Assembly: GCF_902506295.1 (NCBI RefSeq)
Contig: NZ_LR733312.1
Location: 1,403,670 to 1,467,669 of the forward strand
Length of the DNA stretch: 64,000 bases
Reading direction: 5' to 3'
From: Luteimonas sp. 9C
GTDB taxonomy: Bacteria > Pseudomonadota > Gammaproteobacteria > Xanthomonadales > Xanthomonadaceae
Part shown: piece after piece, positions 40,310-48,460 of the stretch
Numbering within the stretch: position 1 is the first letter of the stretch
Layout of the letters: each line of letters starts with the position of its first letter
Position numbers and translations under genes: made by a program
Notes under the pieces: generated by a model
The model's input: only the letters and a program-made list of their open reading frames with translations
The model's database searches: none
Told to the model about the DNA's origin: nothing

Positions 40310-41809
40310 ATGTCCGTGACCCAGATCCTCGCCCCGCTGCGCGCCCATGGCGGCGCGCGCCGCACCACCGGTCTGCCGGACGATGTGCTCGAGCGCTTCG
40401 CCGCCACGCACCCCGACCTCGTCGAGGCCGCACGCGCCGCCGCCGATGCGCACGCCACCCTGGCGCAGGACTTCGCCGAGCTGCTCGACCTGGACGAGGA
40501 TGCGCAGGCGCGCGCCGTACAGGCCGGCTACATCAATTTCTATCCCGGCGATGCGGTGAATCCGTACGTCGCGCTGACCGCACGCGGCCCGTGGATCGTC
40601 ACGCTCAAGGGCGCGGTGCTCCACGATTCGGGCGGCTACGGCATGCTCGGCTTCGGCCACACGCCGAAGGCGGTGATCGAGGCGATGGCGCAGCCGGTGC
40701 CGATGGCCAACATCATGACGCCGAGCCTGTCGCAGCTGAAACTCGACCGCGCCCTGCGCCGCGAGATCGGCCATACCCGCGACGGCGGCTGTCCCTTCAG
40801 CCACTTCCTGTGCCTGAATTCCGGCTCCGAATCGGTCGGCCTGGCCGCGCGCATCGCCGACATCAACACCCGCACCCAGACCGATCCGGGCGGCCGCCAC
40901 GCCGGCCGCACGATCAAGCGCATCGTGGTCAAGGGCAGCTTCCACGGCCGCACCGAACGCCCGGCGCTGTACTCCGATTCCTCGCGCGCGACCTACAAGA
41001 AGTACCTGGCGAGCTTCCGCGACGAGAACTCGCTGATCACGGTTCCGCCCTACGACGCCGACGCGCTGCGCCAGGCGTTCGCCGATGCCGATGCGAACGG
41101 CTGGTTCGTCGAGGCCGTGTTCCTGGAGCCGGTGATGGGCGAAGGCGACCCGGGCCGCGCGTTGCCGCCGGCGTTCTATGCCGTCGCGCGCGAACTCACC
41201 CGCGCCCACGGCAGCCTGCTGCTAGTCGATTCGATCCAGGCCGGCCTGCGTGCGCACGGCGTGCTGTCGGTCGTCGACTACCCCGGCTTCGAGGGTCTCG
41301 ACGCGCCGGACATGGAGACGTATTCGAAGGCGCTCAACGCCGGCCAGTACCCGCTGTCGGTGCTCGCCGTGACGCAGCACACCGCGCAGCTCTACAAGAG
41401 CGGCGTCTACGGCAACACGATGACCGCCAATCCGCGTGCGCTGGACGTCGCCTGCGCGGTGCTCGCGCAGCTCACGCCCGACGTGCGCGCCAACATCCGC
41501 GACGCCGGCCGCAAGTCGGTCGAGGCGCTCGAGGCACTGAAGGCCGAGCTCGGCGGGCTGATCACCAAGGTCCAGGGCACCGGCCTGCTGTTCTCCTGCG
41601 AACTCGCGCCGCAGTTCAAGTGCTACGGCGCCGGCTCGACCGAGGAATGGCTGCGCGAACAGGGCCTGGGCGTGATCCACGGCGGCACCAACTCGCTGCG
41701 CTTCACGCCGCACTTCAACATCGACGACGCGGAGATCGCGCTGATGGTGTCGATGGTTGGCAAGGCGCTGCGCGAAGGTCCGCAACACAAGGCGGCCGCG
41801 GCGGCGTAA
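40310..41809 (+). CDS. Class III PLP-dependent aminotransferase
   Basis: Predicted 499-residue cytosolic transaminase. The fold-type I core is clear: LNSGSESVGLAARIADINT (phosphate-binding glycine/serine region), DSIQAGLRAHG (Asp binding the pyridine nitrogen; the usual DEVQTG is changed) and the Schiff-base Lys in ETYSKALNAGQYP. About 90 extra residues at the N-terminus make it longer than typical 400-450-residue family members. AAAGGAG at 40295-40301 is nine bases before the ATG. Divergent from an Lrp/AsnC regulator, so amino-acid-responsive control is likely. Substrate (for example lysine or another omega-amine) is not determinable by eye. Confidence 0.85.
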   Translation: MSVTQILAPLRAHGGARRTTGLPDDVLERFAATHPDLVEAARAAADAHATLAQDFAELLDLDEDAQARAVQAGYINFYPGDAVNPYVALTARGPWIVTLKGAVLHDSGGYGMLGFGHTPKAVIEAMAQPVPMANIMTPSLSQLKLDRALRREIGHTRDGGCPFSHFLCLNSGSESVGLAARIADINTRTQTDPGGRHAGRTIKRIVVKGSFHGRTERPALYSDSSRATYKKYLASFRDENSLITVPPYDADALRQAFADADANGWFVEAVFLEPVMGEGDPGRALPPAFYAVARELTRAHGSLLLVDSIQAGLRAHGVLSVVDYPGFEGLDAPDMETYSKALNAGQYPLSVLAVTQHTAQLYKSGVYGNTMTANPRALDVACAVLAQLTPDVRANIRDAGRKSVEALEALKAELGGLITKVQGTGLLFSCELAPQFKCYGAGSTEEWLREQGLGVIHGGTNSLRFTPHFNIDDAEIALMVSMVGKALREGPQHKAAAAA

Positions 41810-41890: not shown

Positions 41891-42496
41891 TCATTCCACG
41901 AACGCGTCCACCGAGGCGCGGATCAGCCCGCGCGCCTCGTCTGCATCGCCCCAGCCCGACAGCTCGACACGGTTGCCGCCCGCCGGCAGGTCCTTGTAGA
42001 CCCGGAAGAACGCTTCGATGCGCGCGCGTTCCATCGCCGGCAGATCGTCGAGCGTGCGGACGTCCGCATACGTCGGGTCCACATCGTCGGCCGGCACGCC
42101 GATGATCTTCTGGTCGGCGTCGCCGCCATCGACCATGCGCAGCACGCCCAGCGGCCGGAAACGGACCAGTACGCCCGGCGGCAACGGCGCACGGGTCAGC
42201 ACCAGGGCGTCGAGCGGATCGCCGTCACCGGCCAGCGTGCCGGGCAGCGCGCCGTAGTTCGCCGGATACGCCATCGGCATCGACAGGAAGCGGTCGACAT
42301 GGATCCGGCCCTGCGCGTCGCTTTCGTACTTGATGAAGCCGCCGGCCGGAATCTCGACCCGCAACACGGCCTCGTCCGGCGCGTTCGCCGGTTGGCGATC
42401 GTGCGCGGGTGGTGTCGCCGCAAACACGCCGAACGGCATGCCGCATGCTAATGCTGCGCCGAGCAGCGCTGTAGAGACGCAAGCACGCATGCGCAT
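41891..42496 (-). CDS. Exported family I inorganic pyrophosphatase
   Basis: Predicted 201-residue pyrophosphatase. Unlike the cytosolic housekeeping enzyme it starts with a Sec-type signal (RACVSTALLGAALACGM to about FAA, residue 27), so it should act in the periplasm. Catalytic residues are retained: EIPAG and KYE near the start, DGDPLD at 91-96, and Asp123, Asp128 and Lys130 matching Asp97, Asp102 and Lys104 of the E. coli enzyme. The ATG at 42496 overlaps the stop of the metallophosphatase gene by one base (TGATG). It is the last gene of the phosphate-scavenging cluster and would split released pyrophosphate to phosphate. Confidence 0.85.
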   Translation of the reverse strand: MRMRACVSTALLGAALACGMPFGVFAATPPAHDRQPANAPDEAVLRVEIPAGGFIKYESDAQGRIHVDRFLSMPMAYPANYGALPGTLAGDGDPLDALVLTRAPLPPGVLVRFRPLGVLRMVDGGDADQKIIGVPADDVDPTYADVRTLDDLPAMERARIEAFFRVYKDLPAGGNRVELSGWGDADEARGLIRASVDAFVE

Positions 42497-43920
42497 CACC
42501 CCCAGCACCGGTCGGCGCGGCCCTTGAGCGTCTCGTCACGCGCGCAGTCGCGCGGGGCGATGCGGCCTTCGGTGATCTCGTGCAGCGTGCGCGTCTGCGG
42601 CGTGGCGCCGCGGAGTTCGAACGCATCGTAGAGGCGGCCGGTCGCGGTGCGCGATTCGTAATGCAGCGTATCGCCGTCGAGGCGGATGACCTGGAACAGC
42701 TGGGTGTCCTCGGCGGTCGGCGCCATGTCGCGACGTGCATCGTCCGAGAGCCTGTACTGCTTCGCCCCGACCACCGACACCAGATACTGCGGCGTCGCGC
42801 GCGTCGGGTCTTCGCCGGCACGGCGGCCGTAGACGTGATCGTGGCCCTGCAGCACCAGATCGACGCGTCGGCGTTCCAGCACCGGCAGCACCCGCTCGCG
42901 CAGCGCCACGTTGTCGCGGTCCTGGCGCGGCGAATACATAGGCTGGTGGATCAGTGCGATCGACCAGGGATGCGGGTTGGCGGCCAGCGTGCGATCGAGC
43001 CACACGGCCTGTGCTTCGGCGGTGCCGAGATCGAGCGCAGAGGTGCCGTCGAGCACGACCACGCGCACGTTCTGGTAGTCGAACCAGTAGCTGGTAGCTT
43101 CGGCGCCCGGAGCGCCGTTGGCCGGCAGCGCGAACGCATGCGACCAGTGGCCGCCGAGCACGCGTCGCTCCTGCGGCGTGTCCTCGAACTCCTCCCGGTA
43201 CTCGTGATTGCCGGGCGCGGGCGCGTTGACGACCATCGTCGCCAGCGGGCCGACCGCGTCGAACCACTCGCCCCACTCGTTGTCGTCCTCGCCATCGCCG
43301 CCGCTGACCAGGTCGCCGGCGAACAGCGCGAGCTTCGCGTCGGGGGCCTGCCGGTGCGCTTCTCGCAGCACGCGTGTGCTCAGGCTGGCGTTCTTGTTCT
43401 GGGTGTCGCCGAAGTACAGCAGCGTCAGCGGTGCATCAGCCGCAGCCGCGGTGCGCGTGTGCATCCACGGGCTCCAGGTGCCGACGCCCTGCACGCGCCA
43501 GGCATAGAGCGTGTCCGGCTGCAGGCCATCGACATGGGCATGATGGAATTCGGCCGCGCCGTTCTCCCCCGCCAGGGTGCTGCTGCGCGCCGCGACGCGG
43601 CGACGCGGCCCCATGTCCGGTGAGTCGCCGGCAACGACGATCTCCACGACCGGCGCATCGATGACGGGCGACGGCTGCGCCGGCAACGCCGTCCGCCAGG
43701 ACACGCCGAAGCCCGTCGCCGCGTCCTGCGCGGGCGTGGCGACGATGCGGTCGGGGAACACGCCGGGGGCGTAGCGGATGACGCCCTTGGGCACCAGCGT
43801 ATTGGGTTCGACTTCGGTCTGGCCCGGGCGCGCCGCGGCGAGGCTGGCGGCCGAACACAGCGCCGCGAGCCCGAGGGCCAGCGGCAGCGCGAGGCGACGA
43901 TGCCGACGTGCGCGCCTCAT
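42496..43920 (-). CDS. Purple-acid-phosphatase-type metallophosphoesterase, exported
   Basis: Predicted 474-residue exported phosphatase. A signal peptide (to about residue 30) is followed by a fibronectin-like N-terminal domain (about 55-160) as in purple acid phosphatases, then the calcineurin-like domain: GD at 171-172, GDLV at 202-205, GNHEY at 237-241, His325 in HQP and GHDH at 359-362, which supply the dimetal ligands. The start at 43920 overlaps the upstream phytase-like gene by ATGA. Context with a TonB receptor and pyrophosphatase supports phosphate release from an organic ester; the substrate is inferred. Confidence 0.87.
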   Translation of the reverse strand: MRRARRHRRLALPLALGLAALCSAASLAAARPGQTEVEPNTLVPKGVIRYAPGVFPDRIVATPAQDAATGFGVSWRTALPAQPSPVIDAPVVEIVVAGDSPDMGPRRRVAARSSTLAGENGAAEFHHAHVDGLQPDTLYAWRVQGVGTWSPWMHTRTAAAADAPLTLLYFGDTQNKNASLSTRVLREAHRQAPDAKLALFAGDLVSGGDGEDDNEWGEWFDAVGPLATMVVNAPAPGNHEYREEFEDTPQERRVLGGHWSHAFALPANGAPGAEATSYWFDYQNVRVVVLDGTSALDLGTAEAQAVWLDRTLAANPHPWSIALIHQPMYSPRQDRDNVALRERVLPVLERRRVDLVLQGHDHVYGRRAGEDPTRATPQYLVSVVGAKQYRLSDDARRDMAPTAEDTQLFQVIRLDGDTLHYESRTATGRLYDAFELRGATPQTRTLHEITEGRIAPRDCARDETLKGRADRCWG

Positions 43921-45068
43921 GCGCCACGCCCGCATGCCGGCAGTCCGATCGCCTGTGCGATCTGCGCCCAGTCCAGCGCGACCACGCCCTGGTCGTCGTG
44001 CACGGCGTAGAGCACGCCGTCGGGGAAGCGCGTCGTCGCTACATCGTGCAGCCAGATGCCGTCGGTGTTGGCGACCTGGCGGCCGGTCACCGCGCCGACG
44101 TGCGCCAGCGTCTTGCGGTCGAACAGATGGAACACGGTGCGTCCCTTGCCCTGCTCGGTGGTGATCCACCAGCCGCCGCCGCCCGCACAGGTCTTGAGCA
44201 TGATGCCTTCGGCCTGCGCGCCGAACACGTCGCGACCGATCGTCCGGCCGGCGAAGCGGCCTTCGAGGTCGTAGACCTTCAGTTCGTTGGCGTAGGTCTC
44301 GTCCTCTTCGGCGATCAGCAGGCGATCGTTCGCCGCATCGCCCCAGATCGATTCGACCACGCGCAGCGCACCGTCCGGTGTCGCATCGCCGAACGCGCCC
44401 AGTGTCTCGATCGCGAACCCCTCGCCGTCGAAGCGCATCGCATACCGGTGCACGCGGCGGTCGAGCTGCGCGAGCGGCGGCAGGATGTCGTGGCCCTGGG
44501 CATCTTCGCCGTCGTGGTAGGAATCGGTGACGTAGAGCGTGTACCCGGTGTCGAGCGTGCGCACCCACAGACCGTAGGGTTTGACCAGATCGTCGGCGGC
44601 GAACGTTGCGACGTGGCCGAAGTCCGGCAGGCGCAACACCTGCACGCGGTGGTTGTCGCGCTCGACGACGAATAGCAGGTCGTCGATCACCGCGATGCCA
44701 TTGGGCCGGTCGAACTGTCCTTCGCCGGTCCCGAGCGTACCGAACGTGCGCAGCGTCTCTCCGGTGGCGCCGTCGTAGATCACCAGGCGATCGGTGGCCT
44801 TCGCGGTCGCGATGACCCACGTCGTGCCGTCGGGCGCGGTCCACGCGGTCGGGGAATCGATGTTGTCGTCAGCCGTCAGCGCGGTGACGAACGCCTCGTC
44901 CACGACCGGTACGTCGCGTGCGGTATCGATCGGCGCGGGCGCGGTGGCCTGCGGGTCGACCGCCATGGCGACAGGTGCGTCGGGCGCCTGCGCGCAGGCG
45001 GTCAGGGCGCTGGCGATCGCCAGCGCGCAACCGCGCAGGGCGATTTCGGGAATGGAATGTCGTCGCAT
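43917..45068 (-). CDS. Beta-propeller phytase-like lipoprotein
   Basis: Predicted 383-residue lipoprotein (lipobox LTAC, Cys25). The mature part looks like a beta-propeller: TADDNIDSPTAW (residues 65-76), DRLVIYDGATG, RPNGIAVIDDLLFVVERDN, AEEDETYANELKVYD and AQAEGIMLKT (285-293) resemble the repeated blades of bacterial 3-phytases, which hydrolyse myo-inositol hexakisphosphate. I cannot confirm that the calcium-dependent catalytic residues are all there, so a binding or lactonase-type propeller remains possible. It lies 55 bases after the TonB receptor and overlaps the metallophosphatase by ATGA. Confidence 0.72.
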   Translation of the reverse strand: MRRHSIPEIALRGCALAIASALTACAQAPDAPVAMAVDPQATAPAPIDTARDVPVVDEAFVTALTADDNIDSPTAWTAPDGTTWVIATAKATDRLVIYDGATGETLRTFGTLGTGEGQFDRPNGIAVIDDLLFVVERDNHRVQVLRLPDFGHVATFAADDLVKPYGLWVRTLDTGYTLYVTDSYHDGEDAQGHDILPPLAQLDRRVHRYAMRFDGEGFAIETLGAFGDATPDGALRVVESIWGDAANDRLLIAEEDETYANELKVYDLEGRFAGRTIGRDVFGAQAEGIMLKTCAGGGGWWITTEQGKGRTVFHLFDRKTLAHVGAVTGRQVANTDGIWLHDVATTRFPDGVLYAVHDDQGVVALDWAQIAQAIGLPACGRGA

Positions 45069-45123
45069 GAGAAAACCTCGATCGGAATCGGCGGCGCGCG
45101 TCGCGCAGGCCGCCGGCAGGACA

Positions 45124-47664
45124 TCAGAAGCGCAGCTTCACGCCTGCGGTGTAGGTGCGGCCGTACAGCTCGTTCTGCAGCGTCTGCGCTGGCGAACCCT
45201 GGTAGAGCTCCAAGGGTTCGTCGAGCAGATTGGACGCTTCGAGATAGACGCCCCAGCGGTCGTCGACCTTGTAGTCGAGGCTGAAATCGAGCTGGGTATT
45301 CTCGGCCACCCAGATGTCGAAATCGCTGTCGCTGCTGTCGACGGAATCGATGTACTCGCTGCGGCGCACGGCCGCGAGGCGGGTGCTCAGACCGCCCGTC
45401 TCGTAGCCGAGGTACGCGCTGTAGAGACGATCCGACGCATTGGGCAGGGTGAAGCTGCGGCCGTCGAGTGTGTATTCGGTGTCGAGCCAGGTCGCGCTGA
45501 AGCCCAGCAGCAGACCGCTGGCGAAGTGCTGCTGCCAGTTCAGCTCGGCGCCGTACACCGTGGCCTTGTCGCCATTGACCGGCATGGTCACGTCGAAACC
45601 CTGGTACTCGGGGTTGTCGCGCGTGGTCACATCGACGATGTAGTCGTCGATGTTCTTGTAGAACAGGCCGGCCGAGACGATGCCGGTCTCGCCGAGGTAA
45701 CGCTCGATGGAGATGTCGAGGTTGCGCGACCTGTAGGGATCGAGCGCGGGATTGCCCAGTTCCACTTCCTCTTCGTCGCGATTGATACGGGTCCGCGGCG
45801 AGATGCTGCCGAACGACGGACGCGCGATCGTGGTCGTGTACGCGCCGCGCACCACCCAGTCGTCCATGTCGTAACGCAGGTGCAGGCCGGGCAGCACGCT
45901 GGTGTAGCTGCTGGAGACCTCACGGGTACTGATGGCGCCGATCGTCTCCTCGTCGGCGAGATCGACGACGTTGCCGGTGGCCTCGAATTCGGTGCGCTCG
46001 ACACGCGCGCCTGCGATGACGCGCAGCCGGTCGAAATCCATCGTCGCCATCAGGTAACCCGCCAGGACGTCTTCGCTCGCCACGTAGTCCTCGATCAGCG
46101 AGACCTCGGTGTTGGCGGCGACGTCCTGCGGGCGTGCGCTGTATTCGGACAGGCGATCACGCAGGTAGCTGTTCATCGCGCTCGAACTGATGCCGTCACC
46201 CATGTCGCCGTGCGTGTAGCGCGGTGCGCCCGTGGTCCAGCTGCCGAGGTTGATGTCCGGGCCGCGGCGCAGTTCGTTCTCGTCGATATCGACGTTGCGA
46301 TCGCGCCACCGCCCCAGCAGACCGGCCTTCCAGATCACGAAATCGCCGGCAAAGGTGAAGTTCGCCTGTGCGCTGTATTCCTCGTCGTCCACCCAGATCG
46401 GGGCGACCACGAAGCGGTTGAACTGGTAGTTGTCGTTGTCGAGCCAGCCGCCGGCCGGGCTGTCGCTGATGGTGTAGCGCGGAATCGGTCGCGACGTGTC
46501 CATCTCGATGGAGACGTCACCGGCGCCGTCGTAGTCGAAGCGCGCCTCGACTTCGTCGAGCACGCGCTCGCGGGTCTTGGTGAAGCCCAGCTTGTAATCG
46601 ACGGCCGAGCCGGCACCGAAGCGGTTCTCGCCGCCGGCGCTCACGGTGAAGGTGTCCTCTTCCTTGGTGCGGAACCGGACGCGGCGGCTGAAGTCGTTCG
46701 GGTCGATCCCGTTGACGGTGTAGGTACCGTCCGTGTTCGTCGTGATGTCGCCCTCGCCCACCGGGATGATGCTGTTCTGACGGGTTTCGGCGTCGGTGAA
46801 GTCGGTGTAGAGCGTGCGCAGGTAGTAGCTGTGGCCATCGCCGGGACGCCAGTCCAGGTTGAGGTTCACGCCGGTCCGCTCGCGATTGATGCTGTACTTG
46901 CGCTGCTGGATCTCGATCGGTGTCAAACCGTCGCGCGCGTCCACCTTGTCGTATTCGACTTCGATGTTGTCCGACTCGTAGGTGCGGTCCTGGTGGCTCA
47001 CGCCCAGCGCGACACCGAAGGCGTCGTCGGCGAAGCGGTCGCTGTAGTTGAACGCGGCCTTGGGGCTGGTCTCGCCGCTCAGGCTCTGGTGGCTCATGTC
47101 CGCCCTAGCCCGGATGTCGCGGCCCTTGCGGTCGAACGCGGACGCCGATTCCACCAGGATCGCGCCACCGATCGCGTCGCCGGGCATGTCCGGCGTCGGC
47201 GCCTTGACCACGGTCAGCCGTTCGGTGGAATCGGACGGAATCACGTCCAGCGGCGCCGCGCGGCTGGAATCTTCCGGTGTGCCGATGGCGACGCCGTCGA
47301 CGCTGACGCTGTTGAACGCCGCGTCCAGTCCGCGCACCACGACGAAGCGGCCTTCGCCCTGGTCGCGGGTGACGCTGATGCCCGGCAGACGCGACAGCGA
47401 TTCGCCGACGTTCTTGTCCGGGTACTGGCCCATCGAATCCGACGCCACCGTGTCCTGGATCGCATCGGACGCGCGCTTGAAGTCGATCGCGCGCATCTGC
47501 GATTCGAGCTGGGCGCGGACTTCGAGCGTGTCGAGATCGACCGGATCGGCGAGCGCGCTGCCGTCGGGCGACGGCCCGGGCGTCTGCGCATGGAGCGGAA
47601 GCGTCGCGGCGCCTGCAGCCAGCACGAGCGCGATCGCCACGTGCAGGGGGTGTGGGTTGGACAT
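45124..47664 (-). CDS. TonB-dependent outer-membrane receptor
   Basis: Predicted 846-residue outer-membrane receptor. A Sec signal ends near LHAQ (residue 27). A TonB-box-like segment (DLDTLEVRA, about 43-51) leads into the plug domain (about 60-170, with PDKNVGESLSRLPGISV and VVRGLDAAFNSVSVDGV), then a 22-strand barrel that ends in the outer-membrane Phe of VKLRF. It belongs to the large receptors common in Caulobacter and xanthomonads that import carbohydrates or other nutrients. The two downstream phosphatase-type genes suggest a phosphorylated ligand such as phytate. A Pho-box-like site is 55 bases upstream of the start. Confidence 0.92.
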   Translation of the reverse strand: MSNPHPLHVAIALVLAAGAATLPLHAQTPGPSPDGSALADPVDLDTLEVRAQLESQMRAIDFKRASDAIQDTVASDSMGQYPDKNVGESLSRLPGISVTRDQGEGRFVVVRGLDAAFNSVSVDGVAIGTPEDSSRAAPLDVIPSDSTERLTVVKAPTPDMPGDAIGGAILVESASAFDRKGRDIRARADMSHQSLSGETSPKAAFNYSDRFADDAFGVALGVSHQDRTYESDNIEVEYDKVDARDGLTPIEIQQRKYSINRERTGVNLNLDWRPGDGHSYYLRTLYTDFTDAETRQNSIIPVGEGDITTNTDGTYTVNGIDPNDFSRRVRFRTKEEDTFTVSAGGENRFGAGSAVDYKLGFTKTRERVLDEVEARFDYDGAGDVSIEMDTSRPIPRYTISDSPAGGWLDNDNYQFNRFVVAPIWVDDEEYSAQANFTFAGDFVIWKAGLLGRWRDRNVDIDENELRRGPDINLGSWTTGAPRYTHGDMGDGISSSAMNSYLRDRLSEYSARPQDVAANTEVSLIEDYVASEDVLAGYLMATMDFDRLRVIAGARVERTEFEATGNVVDLADEETIGAISTREVSSSYTSVLPGLHLRYDMDDWVVRGAYTTTIARPSFGSISPRTRINRDEEEVELGNPALDPYRSRNLDISIERYLGETGIVSAGLFYKNIDDYIVDVTTRDNPEYQGFDVTMPVNGDKATVYGAELNWQQHFASGLLLGFSATWLDTEYTLDGRSFTLPNASDRLYSAYLGYETGGLSTRLAAVRRSEYIDSVDSSDSDFDIWVAENTQLDFSLDYKVDDRWGVYLEASNLLDEPLELYQGSPAQTLQNELYGRTYTAGVKLRF

Positions 47665-47718
47665 GGGGAGTTCCGGCGTTGGGAGGTGAACGTCGGATGC
47701 GTACGCTATGTCGGCTGC

Positions 47719-47736
47719 GTGTCATCGCGGTGACAG
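47719..47736 (-). promoter_or_regulatory. Candidate Pho box upstream of TonB receptor
   Basis: On the minus strand CTGTCAC-CGCG-ATGACAC matches the two 7-base repeats and 4-base spacer of PhoB sites (first repeat 6 of 7, second about 5 of 7). A weak -10-like CATAGC follows 8 bases downstream (47705-47710). The same bases also form an inverted repeat TGTCA-N6-TGACA, so a different regulator is possible. Confidence 0.45.
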
Positions 47737-47827
47737 CTGGACGCGCAATTGCGAAACCGGCGCGCCGTGCCACGACGTGCTGTCCGCTTTCCGTCACACT
47801 TCCGCCGATGCCACGCAGGAAACCGTC

Positions 47828-48460
47828 ATGAAAACCGTCGAAGTCCGTCATCCGCTGGTGCAGCACAAGCTCGGCCTGATGCGCCGCGCGGACAACAGCA
47901 CCAAGACCTTCCGCGAACTGTCGGCCGAGGTGGCGACGCTGCTGACCTACGAGGCGACCGCGGACCTGGAGACCGAGGACGCCGAAGTCGAAGGCTGGGC
48001 GGGCACCGTGCGCGTCCGCCGCATCAAGGGGCGCAAGATCACCCTGGTGCCGATCCTGCGCGCGGGCATCGGCATGCTGCCGGGCGTGCTCGATCTCATT
48101 CCAGCGGCCAAGGTCAGCGTGGTGGGCATCAAGCGCGACGAGGATTCGCTCGAAGCCGTGCCCTATTACGAGAACCTGGTCGGCGACATGGCCGACCGCA
48201 CCGCGCTGGTCCTCGATCCGATGCTGGCCACCGGCGGCACACTGATCGCGACGGTGTCGATGCTCAAGGCCGCCGGCGCGAGCCGGATCAAGGGCCTGTT
48301 CCTGGTGGCCGCGCCCGAAGGCCTACGCGCGCTCGAAGCCGTGCATCCGGATGTCGAGGTCTATACCGCCTCGATCGACGAACGCCTCAACGAGAAGGGC
48401 TACATCCTGCCCGGCCTGGGCGATGCCGGCGACAAGATCTTCGGCACCCGGGTGGATTGA
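47828..48460 (+). CDS. upp: Uracil phosphoribosyltransferase
   Basis: Predicted 210-residue cytosolic enzyme converting uracil and PRPP to UMP in pyrimidine salvage. It starts [19 protein letters not shown], carries [14 protein letters not shown] and the PRPP-loop [12 protein letters not shown], and ends [14 protein letters not shown], all family marks. AGGA at 47817-47820 is seven bases before the ATG, which fixes the start. Divergent from the TonB receptor; monocistronic in appearance. Confidence 0.96.

Follow-up and report, generated by a model that had tools for sequence, protein, structure and literature searches.

We found that four minus-strand genes of Luteimonas sp. 9C probably constitute a phosphorus-scavenging operon controlled by PhoB, in which a TonB-dependent receptor, a propeller lipoprotein, a phosphatase and a pyrophosphatase would act in sequence. 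The genes lie in a 64,000-nucleotide stretch of contig NZ_LR733312.1 (assembly GCF_902506295.1, positions 1,403,670 to 1,467,669; hereafter the window). The receptor gene (45124–47664) is followed by those for a lipoprotein with a predicted six-bladed propeller (43917–45068), an exported metallophosphatase of the purple acid phosphatase (PAP) fold (42496–43920) and an exported family I inorganic pyrophosphatase (41891–42508). The first two genes are separated by 55 bases, the phosphatase ATG overlaps the propeller stop codon (ATGA), and the pyrophosphatase start overlaps the phosphatase stop codon (TGATG); the pyrophosphatase probably starts with the ATG at about 42496, although its open frame runs from a GTG at 42508. 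These coordinates, and the presence of a site upstream of the receptor gene, agree with an earlier description of the window from its letters alone (the sequence-only reading). The three secretion signals and one outer-membrane receptor described there were also recovered: judged by eye, the propeller protein carries an LTAC lipobox and the other three proteins hydrophobic N-termini, and the receptor domains scored above their cut-offs.

Computation covers protein families and folds, conserved residues, synteny, the Pho box and the exchange of receptors; substrate, direction of flow, localisation and induction are inferred, as follows. Upon phosphate limitation, PhoB would activate the site at 47719–47736. 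The TonB-dependent receptor would import a phosphorylated compound that porins would not supply, being too big or too rare for them, the propeller lipoprotein would strip phosphates from a polyphosphorylated molecule, and the periplasmic enzyme of the PAP fold would take off the remaining phosphates. The exported pyrophosphatase would cleave pyrophosphate arriving with, or freed from, anhydride-bearing substrates, and orthophosphate would enter the cell via PstSCAB. The organophosphate-scavenging role suggested by the sequence-only reading is consistent with the Pho-type promoter, with a phytase-type propeller that retains most active-site positions, and with the conserved gene order.

Loci with the operon next to upp occur in Luteimonas, Stenotrophomonas and Pseudoxanthomonas, and propeller loci were also found in Lysobacter and others; because the same order recurs across genera, the four-gene arrangement cannot be attributed to chance. 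We compared 80 loci, 41 of which are from Stenotrophomonas or alike; as they are the best 80 of the 392 confirmed in a scan of genome contigs, the counts favour close relatives. The phosphatase gene lies downstream of the propeller gene in 59 of the 80 loci, the pyrophosphatase gene in 65, and both in 59 (six loci end within 3 kb past the propeller), so that the gene order is conserved around the propeller gene, as had been anticipated. All three enzymes were found anywhere in the locus in 40 of the 41 Stenotrophomonas-type loci and in 20 of the 39 others. A second set of 40 loci, partly from the same genomes and including a paralogue from Luteimonas sp. 9C, held the phosphatase in 27 cases, the pyrophosphatase in 21, and the phosphatase without the pyrophosphatase in six (counts for this set, and for the 149 family genomes below, were taken from tables by hand). 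One Stenotrophomonas-like locus, L119 (JAHREJ010000009.1), stands in a record titled Bacillus subtilis SK7B5, and this record is therefore probably contaminated or mislabelled.

The site 5' of the receptor gene, CTGTCAC-CGCG-ATGACAC (CTGTCACCGCGATGACAC; 47719–47736, minus strand), matches 12 of 14 positions of the Escherichia coli PhoB consensus (P = 0.005 against 200 shuffles). Trees and promoter sets comprised 53 rows, namely the window and 52 loci, after 26 Stenotrophomonas-type loci, L081 and L144 had been set aside. Among these dereplicated promoters, 32 matched the consensus at P ≤ 0.05 against mononucleotide shuffles, compared with six for the reversed consensus, three and three for two spacer-shifted versions, and three each for Fur and CRP; the rows share kinship, and the P values are thus not independent. 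With dinucleotide shuffles the figure was 27 of 53 (by receptor type, described below: A, 12 of 29; B, 7 of 9; C, 8 of 12; D, 0 of 2; E, 0 of 1). Most of 30 aligned receptor promoters share a motif with an 11-bp period, TGTCAY-N5-TGMAAC, followed by CGGACATAnCGT, with which the site of the window lines up. The element CGACATAGCGT (47703–47713, minus strand), directly downstream of the box and conserved in most of the same 30 promoters, is probably the −10 region. These data support a putative operon of Pho type, with a PhoB box conserved though not in every relative, and the Pho-box-like site noticed earlier holds up. Control of the receptor promoters by Fur or CRP/Clp was rejected, matches being at chance level (3 of 53 each). 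Read instead as a simple inverted repeat (TGTCA-N6-TGACA), the site was enriched in 24 of 53 promoters, below the direct-repeat PhoB box; the inverted repeat is exact in the window, L071 and L137, and overlaps the PhoB motif, so that the two are not fully separable.

A pattern derived from the motif, and loosened so as to take in the site of the window, gave nine matches in the 3.35-Mb genome of Luteimonas sp. 9C, against three for the reversed pattern. Five of the nine, at four loci, precede plausible genes, i.e., the operon itself, the gene of a phosphate porin next to pstS, one for a further TonB-type receptor and one for an alpha/beta hydrolase; the other four have no obvious candidate. 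The match to the PhoB consensus is complete (14 of 14 positions) before the porin, the other receptor and the hydrolase genes; in the porin–pstS intergenic region, the side facing pstS reaches 13 of 14. At the porin locus (L166:2570-6654; genome position 1262013), the phosphate-selective porin gene is divergent from tandem pstS genes, and the region between them holds several PhoB boxes. The tandem genes resemble PstS/PhoX of Xanthomonas citri, as described in parts of PMC5439949. The other receptor (L165:4043-7378, about 442966) is large, Oar-like and equipped with a carboxypeptidase-regulatory domain, and is a second candidate for a Pho-controlled receptor. The hydrolase (L167:3949-5151, about 1960311) has a signal-like internal start.

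The propeller lipoprotein is, by profile and fold comparison, a divergent relative of beta-propeller phytases. Its best solved folds are the Bacillus 3-phytases, about three Z units above NHL domains, which places a phytase as the nearest fold of the six-bladed propeller. The profile of its C-terminal half matched only 3-phytases in the PDB at E ≤ 0.1, and hhalign aligned the protein with the catalytic phytase domain over 278 columns (E = 4.4e-6). A relationship to the N-terminal domain of dual-domain phytases was discarded, as that alignment covered just 39 columns with a probability of 4.8. We further examined 13 presumed active-site positions, a selection from the residues that do not vary among four canonical phytases. 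Eleven of the 13 are kept and are invariant in 49 propeller sequences; their roles in calcium and phosphate binding are presumed, literature on residue roles having given nothing usable. The "phytase-like" protein of the sequence-only reading keeps most of these positions and departs at two, given below. The protein may be a phosphohydrolase of the calcium type, lipid-anchored in the outer membrane, with phytate as the foremost candidate substrate. No match to the Phytase family (PF02333) at E ≤ 1 was found in the Luteimonas sp. 9C genome. The genome holds a second propeller paralogue (L069:6001-7332; 366137-367231), 50% identical, whose gene overlaps that of an exported-looking M23 peptidase downstream; at this locus tblastn gave no match to the receptor of the window, and a 331-base region there had no match to the PhoB consensus at 10 or more of its positions.

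The metallophosphatase combines the N-terminal domain of purple acid phosphatases (PF16656) with a calcineurin-like domain (PF00149), both above cut-off, and was modelled with a pLDDT of 86.0. All 34 phosphatase sequences carry the metal ligands D172, D203, N238, H325, H360 and H362. The position of the tyrosine that we take to be the ligand giving the purple colour, located by alignment to kidney bean PAP, is Ser in 33 sequences and Asn in one. The enzyme had been called purple-acid-type: this is right for the fold and the metal ligands, and wrong for the purple tyrosine. We did not retain it as a phytase candidate; Foldseek ranks the wheat purple acid phytase first and VIA-align does not, and because the two disagree on the top fold, no substrate was read from it. 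The phosphatase gene is tandemly duplicated in L073:8981-11798 (71% and 59% identity to that of the window), ahead of the pyrophosphatase gene.

The pyrophosphatase matches PF00719 with 158 bits, and 14 catalytic positions, which we presume from the E. coli enzyme, are kept in at least 38 of 39 sequences; a fifteenth, G128, varies. Signal-like N-termini were recognised by eye in the 65 copies among the 80 loci, and the Luteimonas sp. 9C genome encodes a second pyrophosphatase elsewhere, without such a start. The 65 copies are spread over 40 of the 41 Stenotrophomonas-type loci and 25 of the 39 others. Within the family, the exported enzyme was found in 25 of 149 Xanthomonadaceae genomes and the propeller family in 116; class-wide, the exported lineage appeared in three of 274 genomes, all Xanthomonadaceae, with next best matches at 50% identity or less. 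Thus, the ending that had been judged uncommon for such a cluster is common within the Xanthomonadaceae group and rare outside it. Judged by coordinates, a propeller gene stands shortly upstream of 21 of the 25 genes. The remaining four (L215–L218) adjoin a TonB receptor gene, three as receptor, phosphatase and pyrophosphatase, and one as receptor and pyrophosphatase alone. The proposal that the pyrophosphatase "finishes the job" on a substrate such as phytate does not follow, because hydrolysis of phytate monoesters yields orthophosphate and no pyrophosphate, and because the enzyme persists at these propeller-less loci. The source of pyrophosphate could be anhydride substrates, such as nucleotides or inositol pyrophosphates, or pyrophosphate itself.

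The receptor of the window scores 627.7 bits against TIGR01782 (cut-off, 310) and matches PF07715 and PF00593. Receptor frames adjoin the propeller gene in 73 of the 80 loci; the types of five more (L076, L106, L128, L148 and L149) were set by hand from tblastn pieces, three of which (L076, L106 and L149) were then confirmed as TonB receptors, and in L081 and L144 the contig ends before any receptor. Clustering at 42% identity, with the window included, gave at least five clusters, A (55, including that of the window), C (10), B (6), D (2) and E (1). Representatives of all five types carry the Pfam plug and barrel domains and are hence TonB receptors. All 55 receptors of type A run in the direction of the operon, and all those of types C and B are divergent. 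On a quick propeller tree of the 53 rows, receptor type changed at least 12 times, against a mean of 21.8 after shuffling. In L073, a propeller 85% identical to that of the window stands beside a divergent type B receptor; L089 has a phosphatase and a pyrophosphatase 91% and 84% identical to those of the window, yet its receptor is of type C and its propeller 66% identical. Enzymes and receptor are modules with a loose coupling, since the receptors found next to one kind of enzyme set belong to at least five lineages. The receptor exchange may reflect a change of substrate or an escape from phages and bacteriocins. The receptor nearly always adjoins the enzymes and is not strictly required: the idea that it is the sole constant member was abandoned, as L053 lacks it and a tblastn search with the receptor of the window matched nothing at L060, L070 and the paralogue locus L069.

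Several observations weigh against the PhoB-controlled scavenging operon. The box of the window is itself imperfect, 21 of the 53 promoters miss P ≤ 0.05, and the four pyrophosphatase loci without a propeller have no significant box (P from 0.09 to 0.52). The propeller lipoprotein reaches 20.0 bits against PF02333, below the cut-off of 21, which three of six scanned relatives pass (23.2, 23.2 and 28.6 bits) and three fail. NHL domains are its close second folds. Two Asp of canonical phytases are invariantly changed, to Ser72 and Gln285, and phytate, offered earlier as an example of the captured compound, is no more than a candidate ligand; beyond the chosen 13, several further residues that never vary among the four canonical phytases are also lost (e.g., D183 and Y232 of L171). 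Each enzyme is absent at some loci, some of which consist of receptor and propeller alone, and in L053 (4960-8534) upp, propeller and phosphatase adjoin with no room for a receptor between them.

It is possible, if unlikely, that the substrates are extracellular nucleotides or other phosphate anhydrides, from which the phosphatase or the propeller would free pyrophosphate, with the pyrophosphatase destroying it and thereby pulling the reaction. Unlike phytate, anhydrides would account for the need of a pyrophosphatase; plant purple acid phosphatases accept them, and the fold matches include, by its structure title, the kidney bean enzyme with adenosine divanadate. Nevertheless, the phosphatase and pyrophosphatase genes can each be present in the absence of the other, and neither a nucleosidase nor a nucleotidase is among the four genes. 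We consider it rather unlikely that the cluster is an island with interchangeable receptors and a core of TonB receptor and exported pyrophosphatase, providing an outer-membrane route for pyrophosphate or for pyrophosphate compounds (e.g., of inositol or metals), to which the phytase-like and PAP-like enzymes are added or dropped. Doubtful, too, is a core function in scavenging pyrophosphate, or pyrophosphate-bearing or metal–pyrophosphate complexes, which the receptor would import and the pyrophosphatase split into two phosphates, with the propeller and the phosphatase optional. All four propeller-less exported pyrophosphatases (of the 25) still adjoin a TonB receptor, the gene stands directly 3' of the propeller without a phosphatase in L136 and L142, and the catalytic residues are intact. 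Against this, propeller loci without a pyrophosphatase are frequent (15 of 80, some of which end early, and 19 of the 40 in the second set, six of the 19 with a phosphatase), pyrophosphate is presumably small enough for porins, and the box is not significant at the four propeller-less loci. We find it equally doubtful that the propeller is no enzyme and acts in binding or as a scaffold, in the manner of NHL proteins (26.3 bits to NHL), with phosphate released by the other enzymes, since a scaffold would have no need of eleven invariant active-site positions and the phytases exceed NHL domains in the fold comparison. Uptake of iron or another metal through phytate or pyrophosphate chelates, with destruction of the chelator, is very improbable: TonB receptors classically import metal chelates, and both compounds bind Fe(III), but Fur boxes are at chance level in the promoters in which PhoB boxes abound.

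As for the flanks, the common left neighbour is the divergent upp (47819–48460, plus strand; NF001097, 275 bits), encoding uracil phosphoribosyltransferase, which is present in 66 of the 80 loci. On the right, a convergent gene for a class III aminotransferase (40334–41809, plus strand; PF00202) is shared by Luteimonas and Pseudoxanthomonas; it occurs in 25 of the 80 loci, only two of these among the 41 Stenotrophomonas-type loci.

If the PhoB-controlled scavenging operon is genuine, it would provide a testable substrate class for five lineages of orphan TonB receptors, extend bacterial phosphorus scavenging by an exported pyrophosphatase of family I, and offer a natural experiment in which receptors were swapped and enzymes retained. 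Literature searches, judged from titles and the starts of abstracts, yielded no published Pho data that we recognised as concerning this cluster, and phrase searches for a periplasmic inorganic pyrophosphatase gave only work on a house dust mite allergen. A Methylobacterium Ppa is reported in a co-culture secretome in part of PMC10673610. The parts of a Stenotrophomonas survey (PMC11138164) that report phyA from 212 of 213 genomes and ppa from every one describe no such cluster; phytase, phytate and the Pho regulon are absent from the main text of Blanvillain 2007 (PMC1790865), as are phytase and TonB from the X. citri PhoX paper (PMC5439949).

Compared with known enzymes, the propeller is about 21% identical to Bacillus 3-phytase (1poo, 1qlg, 3amr), from which it differs in the two Asp and in being a lipoprotein, the Bacillus enzyme being secreted free. 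The phosphatase is 17–20% identical to kidney bean PAP and wheat PAPhy (6gja), with the purple tyrosine replaced as described above. The pyrophosphatase shares its catalytic residues with family I enzymes and differs from them in its export signal and Pho-type operon. Xanthosan uptake by XanT–XanP in the related genus Xanthomonas follows the same logic of a TonB receptor plus a phosphohydrolase; XanP, according to part of PMC12807533, is a 2H phosphoesterase unrelated to these enzymes, and its superfamily being different, we dismissed an enzyme of this type as a member of the cluster. Around canonical phytase genes of other genomes, a receptor adjoins in three of five loci, one of them with the order receptor, phytase and PhoX (alkaline phosphatase); neither an enzyme of the PAP fold nor an exported pyrophosphatase was found at these five loci by tblastn. 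A related genome (G112) carries, besides this cluster, a canonical propeller phytase of two domains that is accompanied by a separate, divergent receptor (L210:6113-8416). In Caulobacter, the genes for receptor and phytase are presumably neighbours. The PhoB regulon of this bacterium includes TonB receptors and a phytase, as given in part of PMC11208175. Since receptor–phytase pairs and this regulon are known, the general idea is already known as well. The cluster is like these pairs in that a receptor gene adjoins that of a phytase-type propeller, and differs from them in the Ser and Gln at two canonical Asp and in its two added enzymes; what is new is the divergent lipoprotein family of the propeller, the exported pyrophosphatase and the exchangeable receptor lineage.

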